NCBI GenBank assembly: GCA_009886115.1
Contig: VFJJ01000040.1
Location: forward strand, 1-34,256
DNA: 34,256 nucleotides
Direction of reading: 5' to 3'
Source: Actinomycetota bacterium
GTDB taxonomy: Bacteria > Actinomycetota > Acidimicrobiia > IMCC26256 > VFJJ01
The notes beneath the pieces were generated by a model, which saw nothing but the letters and a program-made list of their open reading frames with translations, did no database searches and was not told the origin of the DNA. Every line of letters begins with the position of its first letter. The first letter of the stretch is position 1. Below are positions 2,026-14,796 of the stretch, in pieces. The position numbers and the translations under genes were made by a program.

Positions 2026-3465
2026 CTACCGCGACCCGCCGCGCGTCATGGCTCCCAGGTCGAGGATGCGGTCGAGGTCGGCCGCGGCCATGAGGCCTCG
2101 CTCGACGACCACGTCGCGCACCGGGCGGCGCTCTCGCACGGCCTGCTGCACGACACCGGCGACGACCTCGTAGCCGAGGTGGGGGTTGAGCGCGGTGGCG
2201 ATGGCGGGCGACGAGCCGGCGTGGCGCAGGCACGTTGCCTCGTCGGCGACAATACCGTCGACACAGCGGGAGGCGAAGACCTGGCACACGTTTGCCAGCA
2301 ACCGCAACGATTCCAGCAGGTTCCGGGCCATCACCGGCAGGTACGTGTTCAGCTCGAACGCCCCGTGCGAGCCGGCGAAGGCCACTGCCGTGTCGTTGCC
2401 CACGATCTGCACGGCCACCTGAGCGACGACCTCGGGAATCACCGGGTTCACCTTGCCCGGCATGATCGACGAGCCCGGTTGGAGGTCGGGCAGGTGGATC
2501 TCGCCGAGGCCGGCCGCGGGACCCGAGCCCATCCAGCGCAGGTCGTTGGCGATCTTCATGAGCCCAATGGCCGCCGTGCGGACCTGACCCGAGGTCTCGA
2601 CGAGCGCATCGGGTGCCGCCTGGCTGGCGAAGCGGTCGCGGGCCACGGTGAACGGCAGGTCGAGCCGTTGTGCGAGCGCCGCGATCACGGCCGGCCCGAA
2701 ACCCTTGGGGGCGTTGAGCCCCGTCCCAACGGCCGTTCCCCCGAGCGGCAGCTCGGCCAGACGGGGCACGGCGTCCCGCAGCCGTTGCGCGGCATCCTCG
2801 ACCTGGGTCGCGTACCCGCCGAGCTCCTGTCCCAACGTGATCGGCACGGCGTCCATGAGATGGGTACGGCCGGCCTTCACGACGTGCGCCAGCTCCCGGG
2901 CCTTGGCCCGCAACGAGGCCGCGAGCGTCTCGAGCGCGGGGACGGCCTGCCTTACCACCAGCTCCGTGGCGGCGATGCGGATGGCGGAGGGGAACACGTC
3001 GTTCGACGACTGGCTGGCGTTCACGTGGTCGTTGGGATGCACCGGGGGCCGGCGGGGCCCCAGCCGGTCGGTCGCCAACGAGGCGATCACCTCGTTGGCG
3101 TTCATGTTCGACGACGTGCCCGAGCCGGTCTGGAACACGTCGACGGGGAACTGGTCGTACCAGCGGCCGTCCGCCACCTCGTTCGCCGCCGCGGCGATCG
3201 CCCGGGCCATGGCGGTGGTCACCCCGGGAACCGACCGCAGCCGCCCGTTCACCAATGCGGCCTCGGCCTTGACGAGTGCCAGCGCCCTGATGAGCGCGCG
3301 CTCGATGGGCACGCCCGAGATCGGGAAGTTGGCAACGGCCCGCGCCGTCTGGGCCCCGTAGCGAGCCTCGGCCGGCACGTCGACCGTCCCCAGCGAGTCG
3401 TGCTCGACCCGGGTCTCGCGCCTGCTGGTACTCGTTCCGTTGGTCTCGCCTCTCGCACCGCCCAT
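2026..3465 (-). CDS. fumC: Fumarate hydratase, class II
   Basis: A 479-residue member of the fumarase/aspartase superfamily, which forms homotetramers with active sites built from three subunits. It hydrates fumarate to L-malate in the TCA cycle. Visible signatures are the N-terminal [15 protein letters not shown], the [13 protein letters not shown] segment, [14 protein letters not shown], and the mobile catalytic loop [11 protein letters not shown] at about residues 325-335. The wording of these blocks favours FumC over aspartase or argininosuccinate lyase. The ATG at 3465 was preferred over one at 3492, which would place the start inside palindrome C1 and add a non-conserved extension. mdh, the next TCA step, lies about 1.6 kb upstream on the same strand, separated by a toxin-antitoxin pair. 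Confidence 0.93.
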
Positions 3466-3472
3466 CCCCGCA

Positions 3473-3515
3473 TTCTTCGCGCTTTCGCGCACCCCCGGTG
3501 CAAAATCGCGAAGAA
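3473..3515. repeat. Intergenic palindrome, family C copy 1
   Basis: A 43-nt element with perfect 9-bp outer arms (ttcttcgcg at 3473-3481, cgcgaagaa at 3507-3515) and an inner gcacc-ccc-ggtgc hairpin at 3489-3501. The second copy at 13019-13061 has the same length and orientation and 39 of 43 identical bases. Here it lies between the mazF stop (3533) and the fumC start (3465), so it falls in the fumC leader region. Confidence 0.88.
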
Positions 3516-8398: not shown

Positions 8399-8587
8399 TC
8401 AGCGGACGAGGAGCACCGACACCAGGGCCACGACCCAGAGTCCGGCGCCGAAGAGCACCACCACCGTGAGGTGACGCTGCGAGGGTCGGGGTCCGTCGAC
8501 GAGGTGGAAGTTGCAGGCGCCACAACGGGTTGCGCTGGGCGTGTTGTCGGCCGAGCAGACGGGACAGGGGCGCGCCAACGGCGTCAT
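8399..8587 (-). CDS. Small zinc-ribbon membrane protein
   Basis: A 62-residue protein with two Cys pairs, CPVC (residues 8-11) and CGAC (about 22-25), that make a rubredoxin-like zinc ribbon. A polar linker and one C-terminal transmembrane helix (about residues 40-60, [20 protein letters not shown]) follow. The start ATG overlaps the folD stop as ATGA (8584-8587), so its translation is probably coupled to folD. The zinc ribbon should face the cytoplasm, with the tail anchoring it. The function is unknown. The reading frame is supported by the Cys spacing, the helix and the overlap, not by a known family. Confidence 0.75.
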
Positions 8588-9456
8588 GGCGTAGCGGTTC
8601 GCGCGGCTCGGCGCAGCCCAGCGTCGACGGTGTTGCGCAACAACATGGCGATGGTCATGGGGCCGACCCCACCGATGCGCGGGGTCACGAACGCCGCCAC
8701 CTCGGCCACGTCTTCCGAGACGTCCGAGAGGATCTTCTTGCCGTCGCGTGAGAGCCCGGCACCCACCACGGCGGCCCCGGGCTTGATCATGTCGGGCGTC
8801 ACCAGGCCCGGGAACCCAGCGGCGGCCACGACGATGTCGCCCTGGCGCACGTACCCGGCCAGGTCCTTCACCCCGGTGTGCACCACGGTCACCGCGGCGT
8901 TGCAGTTGGGCCGCTTGAGAGCGAGCAGGAGCGCCAGCGGCCGGCCGATCGTGAGGCCCCGTCCGATGATCACCACGTGGCGGCCCTCGATGGGCACCCC
9001 GTAGTGCACGAGCAACGCGACGATCCCGCCCGGGGTGCAGGGGATGGGCCCCGGAGCGCCCATCACGAGCCGACCGAGGTTCACGGGGTGCAGTCCGTCG
9101 GCGTCCTTGTCCGGATCGACGGCGAGCAACGCTGCGGTCTCGTCGAGGCCCTTCGGGAGCGGGAGCTGCACGATGTAGCTGTCGACGGCGGGATCGGCGT
9201 TGTAGCGGGCGATCGTGGCCAGCACGTCGGCCTGGGTCGCCGATGCCGGCAGGTGGGTGTGCACGGAGGTGACACCCACCTCGGCGCAGGCCGTGATCTT
9301 GTGGTTGACGTAGGTCTCAGACGCCGGATCGTCGCCCACCAGGATCGTGCCCAGGCCCGGGGTCACGCCCCTCGTGGCCAGCTCGGCCACCTCGTCGGTG
9401 AGCGTCGCCCGGACCGCCGCCGACACCTCCACCCCACTCAAGAGCTGCGCTGCCAT
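8584..9456 (-). CDS. folD: Bifunctional methylene-THF dehydrogenase / methenyl-THF cyclohydrolase
   Basis: A 290-residue cytoplasmic enzyme that interconverts 5,10-methylene-THF, methenyl-THF and 10-formyl-THF. It shows the family blocks [17 protein letters not shown] (with the Tyr and Lys of the active site), [41 protein letters not shown] and [15 protein letters not shown] (NADP-binding loop), ending [17 protein letters not shown]. The usual VGRS loop reads GRGLTIGRP, a Ser-to-Leu type difference in the cofactor loop. The ATG at 9456 has ggagggtcacg upstream; an in-frame extension to 9525 runs into palindrome B2. Its product, 10-formyl-THF, is used by the PurN and PurH proteins encoded about 5 kb away. 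Confidence 0.95.
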
Positions 9457-9521
9457 CGTGACCCTCCGGTTCGCTGCGCGGTCGTCCGTCACGCGCGTAC
9501 CACCGTACGCCGAACAACGAC

Positions 9522-9571
9522 CCAACTGTCAGCGTGGGGGTCCGGATACGGCCCCTCACGCCGACAGTTGG
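9522..9571. repeat. Long hairpin, family B copy 2 (inverted)
   Basis: Arms 9522-9544 and 9549-9571 pair at 20 of 23 positions, one further pair being G-T, and close on the loop gata. On the minus strand it matches copy 1 (1966-2019) closely, including the loop. It lies in the divergent promoter region between folD and the kinase gene, ending 11 bases before the presumed kinase -10 box. Confidence 0.85.
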
Positions 9572-9582
9572 CGGGCGACGGG

Positions 9583-9588
9583 TACGCT
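9583..9588 (+). promoter_or_regulatory. Putative leaderless -10 box for the kinase gene
   Basis: TACGCT lies seven bases before the ATG at 9596, with no ribosome site between. This spacing recurs at many starts in the window and fits leaderless transcription. Confidence 0.4.
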
Positions 9589-9595
9589 GCCGCCG

Positions 9596-11848
9596 ATGGC
9601 TGAACCCGCTGGTCGCCACATCCAGATCCCGGGCTTCCGCGACTTCGTGGAGATCGGTCGCGGTGGCTTTGCCGTGGTGTACAAGGCCCAGCAGGACGTG
9701 TTCGCTCGCGACGTCGCGGTGAAGGTCATCACCGTGCTCGACGTGAGCGACGAAGCCCGGCGGCGCTTCCAGCGGGAGTGCACCGCCATCGGGCGTCTGG
9801 CCTGGCACCCGCACATCGTGACCGTGTTCGATGCCGGTGACACGCCCGAGGGCTGGCCCTACTTGGTGATGGAGTACCTGCCCGCCGGGTCGCTCGGCGA
9901 CCGCATTTCGAGCAGCGGCGCCCTGGCCTGGAGCGACGTGGTCGCCATCGGCGTGAAGATCGCCGGGGCCCTCCAAGCGGCGCACGACGAGGGCAGCCTG
10001 CATCGCGACGTGAAGCCCGACAACGTGCTCGTGAACCGGCTGGGCGAGCCCATGCTGGCCGACTTCGGCATCGCCACCCTGCAGGACGGCACCCGTTCGC
10101 GTTCGGGGATGGTGACCGCCACGCTCGTGTACGCGGCGCCCGAGGTGCTCGCCGGACAGCGGGCCACGGTGGCCAGCGACGTGTACGCGCTCGGAGCCAC
10201 GATGCACGCGCTGATCACGGGGAAGCCCCCGTTCACCCGCGACACCGACGAGAACGTGTTCGCCATCATGCGCCGCATCGACGCCGAGCCGGCGGGCGAC
10301 CTGCGCCCGCTCGGGGTGCCCGGCCCCGTGGCCGCGGCCATCGAGCAGGCCATGGCCAAGGCGCCGGTCGACCGTCCCCCCACGGCCGCGGCGTTCGCCA
10401 CGTTGCTCACCGAGGCCGCGCTGGGGGCCGGGCACTCGGCGCATCGTGCGCCGCCCGCGCCCGCGCCCGCTCCGGTGCCAGCCCCGACGCCTACGGCTGC
10501 GCTGATTCCCGTACCGGCAGCGTTCCCACCACCTCCTCCTCCGCAGTTCGTTGCCGTACCTGCGGCCACGGTGATCCCGCCCGGCGCAGCGGCGCCCTGG
10601 TCTCCTCCACCCGTCCCCGCGGCTCCCGTCCCCCCGGCTGCTCACCCCTCGGGCCCGTCCAGGGGCACGCGTCGGCTGGCGCTGATCGCAGGTGCCACCG
10701 CGGTCGTGATCGCGGCGGTGGCCATTGCCCTGTCGATCGGCGGAGGGAGCGACGGAGGGAGCGACGACGGCGGCGGCTCGAACGGTGGTTCCGACCCGAC
10801 ATCGGAGGCAGCGCAGTCGAGAGACGGCCCGGACGGGGCCGAGGCGACGACCATCCCCGATCCGGAGCCCGGCCAGATCATCACCGTCGTGGGGACCGGT
10901 ACCTCAGGCGATTCGGGTCCGGGGCTGGCGCCGGTGACCCTGCTCGACAACCCGTGGGCCATCGCCATCGGCAGCGACGGCAACATCAACATCGCCAACA
11001 CGGGCCGCAATGTGATCCGCATCGTCGACAAAGGCGCTTTCGTCGGTGATCTGGCGCCAGCCTCGGGTCAGACCCTCGACGCGCCCAGGGGCATCACGGT
11101 CGGTCCGGGCGGCAGCGTGCTCTACGCCGACACCAACCACCACCAGATCGGCCGCATCGGCGCCGACTCCAGCATCACCACCATCGCCGGCACCGGCGAC
11201 GCCGACTACGGCGGTGACGGTGGTCCCGCGACAGAGGGTCAGCTCAATGCGCCTCACGGCCTCGCCGTCGGCTCCGACGGCGCCACCTACATCGCCGACA
11301 CGTTCAACGACGCGATCCGCCGCATCGACCCCGACACCGGCAGCATCACCACCATCGCCGGCACCGGCGACGCCGGGCTCTCGGGCGACGGCGGCCCGGC
11401 CACCGCTGCGCAGCTCAACGCTCCACTCGGCGTGGCGGTCGATCCACGGGACGGCGCCATCTACGTGGCCGACACCGACAACCACCGCATCCGCCGCATC
11501 TCGGTCGACGGCATCATCACCACCATCGCCGGCACCGGTTCCGAAGGCGGATACACGGGTGACGGGGGCCCGGCCGTCGACGCTCAGCTCGACGGGCCAT
11601 CCAGCGTCGCCGTCGGCCTCGACGGTGCCATCTACGTGGCTGACACGTTCAACGACGTGATCCGCCGCATCTCGGTCGACGGCATCATCACCACCATCGC
11701 CGGCACAGGGGAGCCGGGCGACAGCGGTGACGGCGGCCATGCCGGCGACGCCCAGCTCGACGGCCCGCGGGGCGTCGCCGTCGGCCCCGACGGCGACGTG
11801 TACATCGCCGACACCAGCAACCACAAGATCCGCCGCATCGGCGCTTGA
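9596..11848 (+). CDS. PknD-like Ser/Thr protein kinase with extracytoplasmic NHL propeller
   Basis: A 750-residue receptor-type kinase. The cytoplasmic kinase domain (about residues 13-275) has the glycine loop IGRGGFAVVY (20-29), Lys43 in VAVK, the catalytic loop HRDVKPDN (136-143) and DFG (156-158), so it should be active. A Pro/Ala-rich juxtamembrane linker (about 283-357) leads to one transmembrane helix (361-381). A Gly/Ser/Asp-rich spacer (382-425) and a C-terminal beta-propeller of about 55-residue NHL repeats (427-750) follow. The repeats read ITTIAGTG, GDGGPA, AQLNAP, GVAV and YVADT. The kinase-TM-NHL order is that of mycobacterial PknD, whose propeller faces outward as a sensor. The start is the ATG at 9596; upstream in-frame sequence crosses palindrome B2. 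A binding-protein reading frame begins directly after the stop in the +1 frame. Confidence 0.93.
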   Translation: MAEPAGRHIQIPGFRDFVEIGRGGFAVVYKAQQDVFARDVAVKVITVLDVSDEARRRFQRECTAIGRLAWHPHIVTVFDAGDTPEGWPYLVMEYLPAGSLGDRISSSGALAWSDVVAIGVKIAGALQAAHDEGSLHRDVKPDNVLVNRLGEPMLADFGIATLQDGTRSRSGMVTATLVYAAPEVLAGQRATVASDVYALGATMHALITGKPPFTRDTDENVFAIMRRIDAEPAGDLRPLGVPGPVAAAIEQAMAKAPVDRPPTAAAFATLLTEAALGAGHSAHRAPPAPAPAPVPAPTPTAALIPVPAAFPPPPPPQFVAVPAATVIPPGAAAPWSPPPVPAAPVPPAAHPSGPSRGTRRLALIAGATAVVIAAVAIALSIGGGSDGGSDDGGGSNGGSDPTSEAAQSRDGPDGAEATTIPDPEPGQIITVVGTGTSGDSGPGLAPVTLLDNPWAIAIGSDGNINIANTGRNVIRIVDKGAFVGDLAPASGQTLDAPRGITVGPGGSVLYADTNHHQIGRIGADSSITTIAGTGDADYGGDGGPATEGQLNAPHGLAVGSDGATYIADTFNDAIRRIDPDTGSITTIAGTGDAGLSGDGGPATAAQLNAPLGVAVDPRDGAIYVADTDNHRIRRISVDGIITTIAGTGSEGGYTGDGGPAVDAQLDGPSSVAVGLDGAIYVADTFNDVIRRISVDGIITTIAGTGEPGDSGDGGHAGDAQLDGPRGVAVGPDGDVYIADTSNHKIRRIGA

Positions 11849-11849
11849 G

Positions 11850-12992
11850 GGAGCGTGGGCCGATGGCGCAGGCGGCGGGGACGAACAAGGCGATGCGACC
11901 ACCGAGGCGGCCAGCGAGCTGAAGCTCGACGATCCGGTGTCGATCATCGGCCTGTACGAGGACACCGGCGAGAGCCCGGCGGCCCAGCCGTACTTCGCCG
12001 CTGGCGCGCAGATGGCCATCGACGAGATCAACGAGGCCGGCGGGATCGGCGGCCAAGAGGTCACTTACGAACGCATCGCAGCCGGGTTGGCTGCCGACGC
12101 GGCCGTCCAATCAACGCTTCAGGCCATCGACAAGGCACCCACGGCGATGATCGGCTTGGTATCGTCGGGTCAGGTGATCGCGGCGGCGCCCGAGAAGAGG
12201 ATGGCCGAGATCCCGGCCATCCTCTTCTCGGGCGCACCGCAGGCGTTCCTCGACTACGAGGGCGAGGGCGGCGTCGGCAACGAGTGGGTCTTCATCCTCC
12301 GTCCACGCAACACCTCGATCGCGGCGCAGCAGGTCGCCTTCGTCAACGATGAGTTCGCGCCGAGCAAGGTCGCGCTGCTCTGTGTGAACAACCCGTTCGG
12401 CACCGCGAGCTGTGACGTCATGGAGGCCGAGCTCGAGGCGCTCGGCATCGAGGTCACGACCCGGGAGACGAACGAGTTCGACGCCACCGACATGACGGCG
12501 CAGGTGCTGGCCATCCAGAACGGTGATCCCGACCTCATCCTCGACGTGAACTTCCCGAACCGGATCACCGTGTTCGGTAACCAGCTCATCGAGAACGGCC
12601 TTGCCATCCCGCACGTCGCCGGGGCCAGCGCCGGCTTCGCCTTCCTCTCCGGCAACCTCAGCGACGACGCCCGCGATCTCCTTTACGGAGTCGAGGACTG
12701 CCTCCCGACCCTCCAGAACGAGGAGTGGGCAGCCAAGTACGAGGACCAGTTCGCCGCTCTGCCCAACTATGCGGCCGCCGAGACCTACGACGCGGTGTAC
12801 ATCATCAAGGATGCCATCGAGCGGGCTGGCAGCACTGAGGGCCGCGCCGTTCGCAATGCCTTGGCCGAAACCGACTACGAGGGCATCTGTACCACCTACC
12901 AGGCCGACGCGGGGAATGGCCTGCATCACGGCGCCGTGATCGTCAACTACGTCGATGGTCAGATCAACATCGTCAAAGAGCTCAGCTTTTGA
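11850..12992 (+). pseudogene. Signal-less periplasmic binding protein (Peripla_BP_6, branched-chain amino-acid type): truncated gene or displaced kinase sensor domain
   Basis: About 380 codons of a type I periplasmic binding protein: DDPVSIIGLYEDTG, MAIDEINEAGGIGG, VALLCVNNPFGTASCDVMEA, TDMTAQVLAIQNGDPDLIL, YAAAETYDAVYIIKDAIERA and a natural C-terminus INIVKELSF. The mature domain looks complete. At the 5' end there is no start codon with a ribosome site, no signal peptide and no lipobox; only a linker (GAGGGDEQGDATTEAASE) precedes the domain. The frame is open through the end of the kinase gene in the +1 frame. No permease or ATPase of a Liv system is nearby. It is either a 5'-truncated pseudogene, or the extracellular domain of a receptor kinase cut off by a frameshift or deletion. 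Kinase-binding-protein fusions are known in actinobacteria. Confidence 0.65.
12186..12235. repeat. 21-bp perfect palindrome inside the binding-protein frame
   Basis: Arms 12186-12206 and 12215-12235 are perfect reverse complements around the 8-nt loop gagatccc. In the reading frame they encode APEKRMAEIPAILFSGA, which fits the family, so the hairpin coexists with plausible protein sequence. It does not resemble the intergenic families A to E. Confidence 0.88.
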
Positions 12993-13018
12993 TCTCTCGC
13001 AGCGTCGCCACCCCGGGT

Positions 13019-13061
13019 TTCTTTGCGATTTCGCGCACCCCCGGTGTAAAAGCGCGAAGAA
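13019..13061. repeat. Intergenic palindrome, family C copy 2
   Basis: The outer arms ttctttgcg (13019-13027) and cgcgaagaa (13053-13061) pair with one G-T. The core cgcgcacccccggtg is identical to copy 1 at 3473-3515. It lies between the convergent ends of the binding-protein frame (12992) and purH (13081). Confidence 0.88.
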
Positions 13062-13080
13062 TCGTGCCGTCGTCGCTCCT

Positions 13081-14796
13081 TCAGTGCTTGAAGTGGCGGC
13101 GGGACGTGAACACCATCGCGATCCCGTGCTCCTCGGCGGCGGCGATCACCTCGTCGTCGCGGATCGAGCCGCCGGGCTGGATGACCGCAGCCACGCCGGC
13201 TGCCGCGGCGGCGTCGAGGCCGTCGCGGAAGGGGAAGAAGGCGTCGGAGGCACAGACCCCGCCGTGGGCCCGGTCGCCGGCCTTTCTCGACGCGATCTCG
13301 GCGCTGTGGACCCTTGACTGCTGCCCGGCGCCGATCCCCACGGCCACACCGTCGCGAACGAGCACAATGGTGTTCGACGTGACGTGGGCGCACACGACGT
13401 AGGCGAACTCGAGATCGCGCCACTGGGCTTGGGTCGGCTCGACCTTGGTGACGACCCTCCAGGCCGACCGGTCGACGACGGTCGTGTCGGCCTCCTGCAC
13501 GAGGAAGCCGCCGTCGATCCGGGCGTAGTGCAGGCCCGGCGCCCCCGAGGGCGCGGGGGCCTCGAGCACCCGGAGGTTCTTCTTCTCGTTGAGGATGTCG
13601 ATCGCGCCGGCCTCGTACGACGGCGCCACGACCACCTCGATGAAGACCCCGGCGATCGCCGACGCCGTTGCGCACGTCAGCTCCCGATTGACGGCCACCA
13701 CGCCACCGAAGGCCGAGAGCGGATCGCACTCGAACGCCCGCCGGTAGGCCTCGACCACCGAATCTGTCACCGAATCTGTCGCAGAATCTGCGCGCGAATC
13801 GCCCACCGAATCTGTCGCAGAATCGGCGCGGACGGTCGCCTCGGTCACGACCGCCACCCCGCAGGCGTTGGCGTGCTTGACGATCACGCACGCCGGCTCG
13901 CTGAACGAGCACACGAGCGTGTACGCGCTCTCGACGTCGAGCAGGTTGATGAAGCTGAGTTCCTTGCCTCCGTGCTGCACGGCCCGATCGTGGAAACCCG
14001 CCGGACCCCCTCCCACCTCGCGATAGCGCGCCGCTCGTTGGTGCGGGTTCTCGCCGTAGCGCAACGACGCGACCCGCTCCAGGGTCAGGGGCAGGTGGAC
14101 GGGCAGCGGATCGGCTGCACCGTCTCGGTCGTCGGCTCTGTCCCCGGCGGCGCCAGCCGGAGCAGCAGCAGCAAGGGGCCCCTGGAGCCAGCGAACGATG
14201 GCGGCGTCGTACTCGGCGGTGTGCGCGAACGCCTGTAACGCCAAGGCCTGGCGGGTCTTGGCGCCCAGCGTGCACTGGTTGAACTGGAGCTCGCCGAGGA
14301 TGCCCGGGTACGAGGCCGGATCGGTGACCACACCCACCCAGGCGTGGTTCTTGGCCGCGGCGCGCACCATGGTCGGCCCACCGATGTCGATGGTCTCGAT
14401 CGAAGGCCGGGCCAGGAAGGGGTACAGGTTCGAGACGACGAGATCGACGTAGCCGTAGCCCTCGCGCTCCATGTCGGCGACGTGGTCGGGTACGCCGCGG
14501 TCGGCCAGGATCGCACCGTGCACGCGGGGATGCAGCGTCTTCACCCGGCCGCCGAGCATCTCGGGCGCGCCGGTCACGTCCTCGATCTTCACGACCGGAA
14601 CTCCAGCGGCGGCAAGCTCCGAGGCCGTTCCCCCGGACGACCACAGCTCGACGCCCAAGGCCACCAGGCCCCGGGCGAACTCGACCAGGCCCGTCTTGTC
14701 GTACACCGACAGCAGCGCCCGGGACACCGGGACCCTGTCGACACGCCCCGTCGCGCCAACCTCAGCAGCGCCAGCCCCGCCACCCTCGTCAACCAC
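13081..14796 (-). CDS. purH: Bifunctional AICAR transformylase / IMP cyclohydrolase
   Basis: A 571-residue enzyme for the last two steps of IMP synthesis. The N-terminal IMP cyclohydrolase (MGS-like) domain has LLSVYDKTGLVEFA, LWSSGGTASELAAAG, GGRVKTLHPRVHGAIL and VVSNLYPF. The AICAR transformylase part has LRYGENPHQRAA, the Lys-His pair in VIVKHANACGVAV (Ala where most have Pro), DPLSAFGGVVAVNREL and DAFFPFRDGLD, with the usual end SRRHFKH. A 24-residue insert of six four-residue units (xxDS) sits between the Lys-His segment and VEAYRRAFECDPLSAFGG. It is encoded by a 12-bp tandem repeat at 13759-13830. The GTG at 14796 overlaps the purN stop by eight bases; a GTG about 22 codons further in, just before SRALLSVYDKTG, is an alternative start. 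Confidence 0.95.
   Translation of the reverse strand: MVDEGGGAGAAEVGATGRVDRVPVSRALLSVYDKTGLVEFARGLVALGVELWSSGGTASELAAAGVPVVKIEDVTGAPEMLGGRVKTLHPRVHGAILADRGVPDHVADMEREGYGYVDLVVSNLYPFLARPSIETIDIGGPTMVRAAAKNHAWVGVVTDPASYPGILGELQFNQCTLGAKTRQALALQAFAHTAEYDAAIVRWLQGPLAAAAPAGAAGDRADDRDGAADPLPVHLPLTLERVASLRYGENPHQRAARYREVGGGPAGFHDRAVQHGGKELSFINLLDVESAYTLVCSFSEPACVIVKHANACGVAVVTEATVRADSATDSVGDSRADSATDSVTDSVVEAYRRAFECDPLSAFGGVVAVNRELTCATASAIAGVFIEVVVAPSYEAGAIDILNEKKNLRVLEAPAPSGAPGLHYARIDGGFLVQEADTTVVDRSAWRVVTKVEPTQAQWRDLEFAYVVCAHVTSNTIVLVRDGVAVGIGAGQQSRVHSAEIASRKAGDRAHGGVCASDAFFPFRDGLDAAAAAGVAAVIQPGGSIRDDEVIAAAEEHGIAMVFTSRRHFKH
13759..13830. repeat. 12-bp in-frame tandem repeat in purH, six units
   Basis: Units of the form cgaatctgtcgc begin at 13759, 13771, 13783, 13795, 13807 and 13819. 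Units two and five are identical. Being in frame, they add 24 residues of an Ala/Thr/Asp/Ser repeat to PurH. The units are AT-richer than the surrounding gene. Confidence 0.92.

Follow-up and report, generated by a model that had tools for sequence, protein, structure and literature searches.

A 34,256-nucleotide stretch of an Actinomycetota genome (contig VFJJ01000040.1 of assembly GCA_009886115.1; hereafter the window) carries an intact PknD-like receptor kinase gene and, directly behind it, a LivJ/LivK-type binding-protein gene that has no beginning. We consider it probable that a recent deletion took the 5' end of what was once a separate lipoprotein gene. A second copy of a liv-type lipoprotein binding-protein gene would have sat behind the kinase; a deletion reaching from the kinase stop to just past the lipobox would then have removed the ribosome site, start and signal, leaving a copy that could no longer be exported and would now be a young pseudogene. 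The kinase can be recognised as complete rather than broken from the count of propeller blades against the stop codon, together with an intact paralogue of the binding-protein gene elsewhere in the genome. The features of the locus are as follows.

8584-9459, minus strand: folD, left neighbour (Pfam, synteny)
9522-9571, no strand assigned: left-edge dispersed palindromic repeat, REP-like, at about 40 places in the genome
9596-11848, plus strand: Ser/Thr protein kinase gene (Pfam Pkinase, NHL and TEN_NHL; kinase motifs and transmembrane helix; propeller model)
10850-11845, plus strand: NHL propeller sensor (AlphaFold2 model, Foldseek, alignment to a paralogue on contig C113)
11849-11895, plus strand: junction, 47 bp
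11896-12992, plus strand: Peripla_BP_6 (LivJ/K-type) binding-protein gene without start, signal peptide or lipobox (Pfam, DNA identity to the paralogue on contig C95, dN/dS, fold)
12186-12235, no strand assigned: near-perfect palindrome of 50 bp in the binding-protein frame, with a 22-bp perfect stem and a 6-nt loop
13017-13064, no strand assigned: right-edge dispersed repeat, REP-like, at about 20 places in the genome
13081-14796, minus strand: purH, right neighbour (Pfam, synteny)

The kinase gene and its propeller sensor

The kinase reading frame runs from ATG 9596 to TGA 11846-11848, and its product matches Pfam families Pkinase (E 5e-44) and NHL (E 1e-30). It encodes, in order, a cytoplasmic kinase domain with the catalytic motifs GRGGF, VAVK, HRDVKPDN, DFG and APE, a Pro-rich juxtamembrane part, a transmembrane (TM) helix, a Gly/Ser/Asp linker and a six-bladed NHL propeller. 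By hydropathy, the helix (amino acids 361-379) is the single strong hydrophobic segment and lies between kinase and sensor. Kinase domain, single TM helix and closed six-bladed sensor are all present, which makes this a PknD-like receptor Ser/Thr kinase.

The propeller fixes where the gene ends. AlphaFold2 modelled the sensor as 24 strands in six blades of four (pLDDT 81, pTM 0.87, from an alignment of only two sequences), with blade six closed by the N-terminal strand IITVVGTG and the final strand, KIRRIG, stopping one residue short of the stop codon. Foldseek matched this model to NHL propellers, including that of Mycobacterium tuberculosis PknD (1rwl; TM-score 0.83 by target length). In an alignment, the C113 kinase paralogue closes its propeller in the opposite way, with a C-terminal strand; because the two genes close in complementary ways, both hold whole propellers. 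Since the last strand of a complete six-bladed propeller reaches almost to the stop codon, the model indicates that the kinase gene is complete and ends naturally there. The original prediction had spoken of a broken or rearranged receptor kinase: ‘rearranged’ stands, as the binding domain has lost its 5' end, and ‘broken’ does not, as the propeller is complete at the stop.

The external domain of M. tuberculosis PknD is a six-bladed propeller (PMC3601408). Like PknD (PDB 1RWI/1RWL), the window gene joins a Ser/Thr kinase through one TM helix to an extracellular six-bladed NHL propeller, but its blade sequences are different and its Gly/Ser/Asp linker is longer. In the PDB its NHL part matches the PknD sequence only weakly (E 5e-11), and the repeats are closer to teneurin-type NHL. 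By analogy with PknD, the external propeller of the predicted receptor presumably binds something and signals through the TM helix to the kinase domain.

The same genome encodes ten or more additional kinases of similar type that have other external parts. A receptor-kinase family (L025-L034, on contigs C93, C159, C113, C73, C99, C193, C217, C95 and C83) has a near-identical layout with differing external parts, among them PASTA-like, NHL, SUMF1/FGE-like and other domains (we assigned the domain names by eye). Several NHL stretches resembling the kinase propeller also occur in one frame of about 2242 amino acids on contig C127 (24882-28880).

The binding-protein copy and its intact paralogue

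The Peripla_BP_6 domain (Pfam E 1e-43) lies in the +1 frame relative to the kinase and ends at TGA 12990-12992. It is predicted to adopt a complete two-lobe fold, like LivJ/LivK-type solute-binding proteins of the same Pfam family such as 3TD9 and 4GNR; unlike them, it has no signal peptide, lipobox or adjacent permease. In the binding-domain frame hydropathy revealed neither a signal nor a TM segment, and a lipobox was also absent, so that of the marks of a secreted Liv-type ABC binding protein the locus has the fold and neither of the export signals. There are no linked permease and ATPase genes at the locus, where the copy's neighbours are the kinase and purH. The sole standard in-frame start between kinase stop and domain is GTG 11937, which coincides exactly with the first beta strand and lacks a real Shine-Dalgarno sequence. 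Two in-frame candidates farther upstream, GTG 11727 and ATG 11739, lie within the NHL coding region and yield no signal peptide, and the one Shine-Dalgarno/ATG pair of fair quality (11863) leads into 19 codons of frame 1 that stop short of the binding domain. We thus confirm the original prediction's description of a domain directly behind the kinase stop, in the +1 frame, without usable start, ribosome site, signal peptide or lipobox.

An intact paralogue lies in the same genome on contig C95 (5463 to about 6716, minus strand). Start codon, signal peptide, lipobox (VAAAC) and Thr-rich linker are all present there, and liv-type transporter genes (Pfam BPD_transp_2 and ABC_tran) lie beside it. 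The two copies share 85% protein and 86% DNA identity (the latter over 1100 bp) and are colinear and gap-free over 359 codons. DNA homology begins only at 11896, within the linker, and stops 3 bases past the stop codon. The seven closest class homologues inspected are likewise stand-alone proteins that begin with an export region of the usual kind, in most cases including a lipobox. None of the five class hits inspected for their unusually long frames was a kinase fusion: they were lipoprotein genes, or a binding protein whose frame continues into a permease, and what lay upstream was open frame only. Public genomes yielded no orthologous junction, the contig scan returning only remote binding proteins (22-38% identity), and plasmid records held ordinary binding proteins only. 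The family comprises one genome, and the ancestral arrangement is reconstructed from the paralogue and the anatomy of the locus rather than from an orthologous junction.

The 47-bp junction shows no homology to the intact C95 copy and reads GAWADGAGGGDEQGDA in the binding-protein frame, like a coding linker right up to the kinase stop. Elsewhere in the genome it has no informative match, the best (on C160) being short and adjoining an unrelated gene. It is probably a residue of the lipoprotein linker.

Comparison of the 359 gap-free codons gave dS 0.43, dN 0.088 and dN/dS 0.20, with no indels. We counted 67 nonsynonymous differences where about 175 would be expected had the window branch been wholly neutral; with a functional dN/dS assumed at 0.10-0.20, the neutral share of that branch is 0 to about 23%. 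Derived residues divide into 24 in the window copy and 18 in the intact copy (p 0.44; outgroups distant, 24-41% identity). From this deficit of nonsynonymous differences and the 24/18 split, the codon comparison indicates that purifying selection acted on the copy through most of the period after the copies split and that its frame was kept until recently.

The palindrome at 12186-12235 bears on the same history. Its hairpin is strong (-59.5 kcal/mol, z -8.6), and the segment is 96% palindromic in the window copy versus 72% in the intact C95 copy; both arms of a formerly imperfect inverted repeat, still visible in C95, now match. Across 137 kb of genome it is the only perfect stem of at least 16 bp within a known coding frame, the other four looking like dispersed repeats or terminators. 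The palindrome likely arose by a quasipalindrome template-switch mutation; template switching at such sites typically leaves changes of this kind (PMC7202029, PMC8604942). It may also be an artefact of the assembly or the library. The change created a Lys where seven of seven outgroups have Ile, Leu or Val, and this residue and the new palindrome are fresh changes that fit recent damage.

Competing accounts of the junction

The original prediction favoured a fusion receptor, in which kinase, NHL propeller and binding protein once formed a single product whose frame was broken by one base, through a real mutation or a sequencing error. If true, this would be a two-sensor receptor kinase, and such kinase/binding-protein fusions are annotated in Streptomyces; our literature search on them yielded nothing useful. 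The idea has real attractions. The kinase TM helix would put both sensors outside, so that no signal peptide would be needed, and none is present; the binding domain was retained under selection; and the junction can be read as a Gly/Asp/Glu linker in the binding-protein frame. Yet one continuous open frame is absent, TGA 11846-11848 and the +1 frame standing between the two parts, and the stop falls exactly where a complete propeller ends. A random break sparing the kinase could hit any of about 385 linker and binding-domain codons, yet it lies at the domain boundary; a deletion ending short of the kinase stop explains a break at the natural kinase end without coincidence.

Two further arguments for the fusion had come from the reading frame and the linker. 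The +1 frame is indeed open across the kinase stop, as claimed, but open +1 frames of equal length (41 codons) occur at 20-80% of positions in the window's genes, and being so common by chance they make the observation uninformative. A missing signal peptide and an open second frame should generally be treated with caution as weak evidence of fusion in GC-rich genomes, because there a stop is often spanned by an open second frame. The proposed resemblance between the junction linker and the kinase TM linker is within chance, matched equally well by 9% of shuffles at the protein level and 14% at the DNA level. No kinase fusion stood among the class hits inspected, and none of the genome's ten best-matching kinase genes carried a binding-protein sensor or had one in tandem. 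We rejected on the latter ground the alternative origin also put forward, a deletion between tandem receptor kinases. An intact, separate lipoprotein gene had been named as the sign of simple 5' truncation, and one exists, 85% identical, as the paralogue on C95 rather than as an orthologue at the locus. With a complete propeller, an intact C95 paralogue and separate class homologues, the fusion reading is mostly unsupported, and we judge it unlikely. Part of the evidence does not discriminate: long purifying selection with neither a stop nor a frameshift is also what a binding domain still in use would show, and a coding-like junction up to the kinase stop is predicted by a fusion too, so that both observations suit deletion and fusion alike.

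An artefact of assembly or binning, with the kinase wrongly joined to the binding-protein copy or the gene's 5' part lost, would suit a genome in 224 contigs and a junction common to no relative. Against it, neither part of the junction is found at full identity in a second place in the genome, contigs C95 and C107 carry the same two dispersed repeat families, which points to one genome or very close ones, and the C95 copy cannot simply have been misjoined here, as it differs by 14% in DNA; we hold such an artefact to be quite improbable. There is a slim chance that a frame change at the boundary gives rise to both one- and two-sensor receptors, the latter with NHL propeller and Liv-type domain stacked outside the cell. 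Slimmer still is the prospect that translation of the copy continues, restarting at GTG 11937 or coupled to the kinase stop, and gives a cytoplasmic binding domain with no leader: the frame is kept open and that GTG sits precisely where the fold begins, but it has no Shine-Dalgarno sequence and the frame opened at 11863 misses the domain. A programmed +1 frameshift at GCT TGA, producing kinase-NHL together with kinase-NHL-binding-protein, would make sense of a UGA stop exactly at the domain boundary followed by an open +1 frame. That site, however, shows neither a known slippery sequence nor a Shine-Dalgarno stimulator upstream, there is no conserved homologue, and open +1 frames are common in the window; we hold this to be very improbable.

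Genomic setting

The deletion that we favour would have struck a block that is itself new to the locus. In all 13 order relatives checked, purH and folD are direct neighbours on one strand, whereas in the window the pair is split (8584-14796) by the kinase and binding-protein block, which has the opposite orientation. Given this adjacency in 13 of 13 relatives, the block is an insertion in the window lineage. The repeats at its two edges each recur in the window: the 50-bp REP-like palindromic element (CCAACTGTCAGCGTG...CACGC..GACAGTTGG) at 1966-2019 as well as 9522-9571, and the second dispersed family (GCGCACCCCCGGTGTAAAAGCGCGAAG core) at 3450-3515 as well as 13017-13064.
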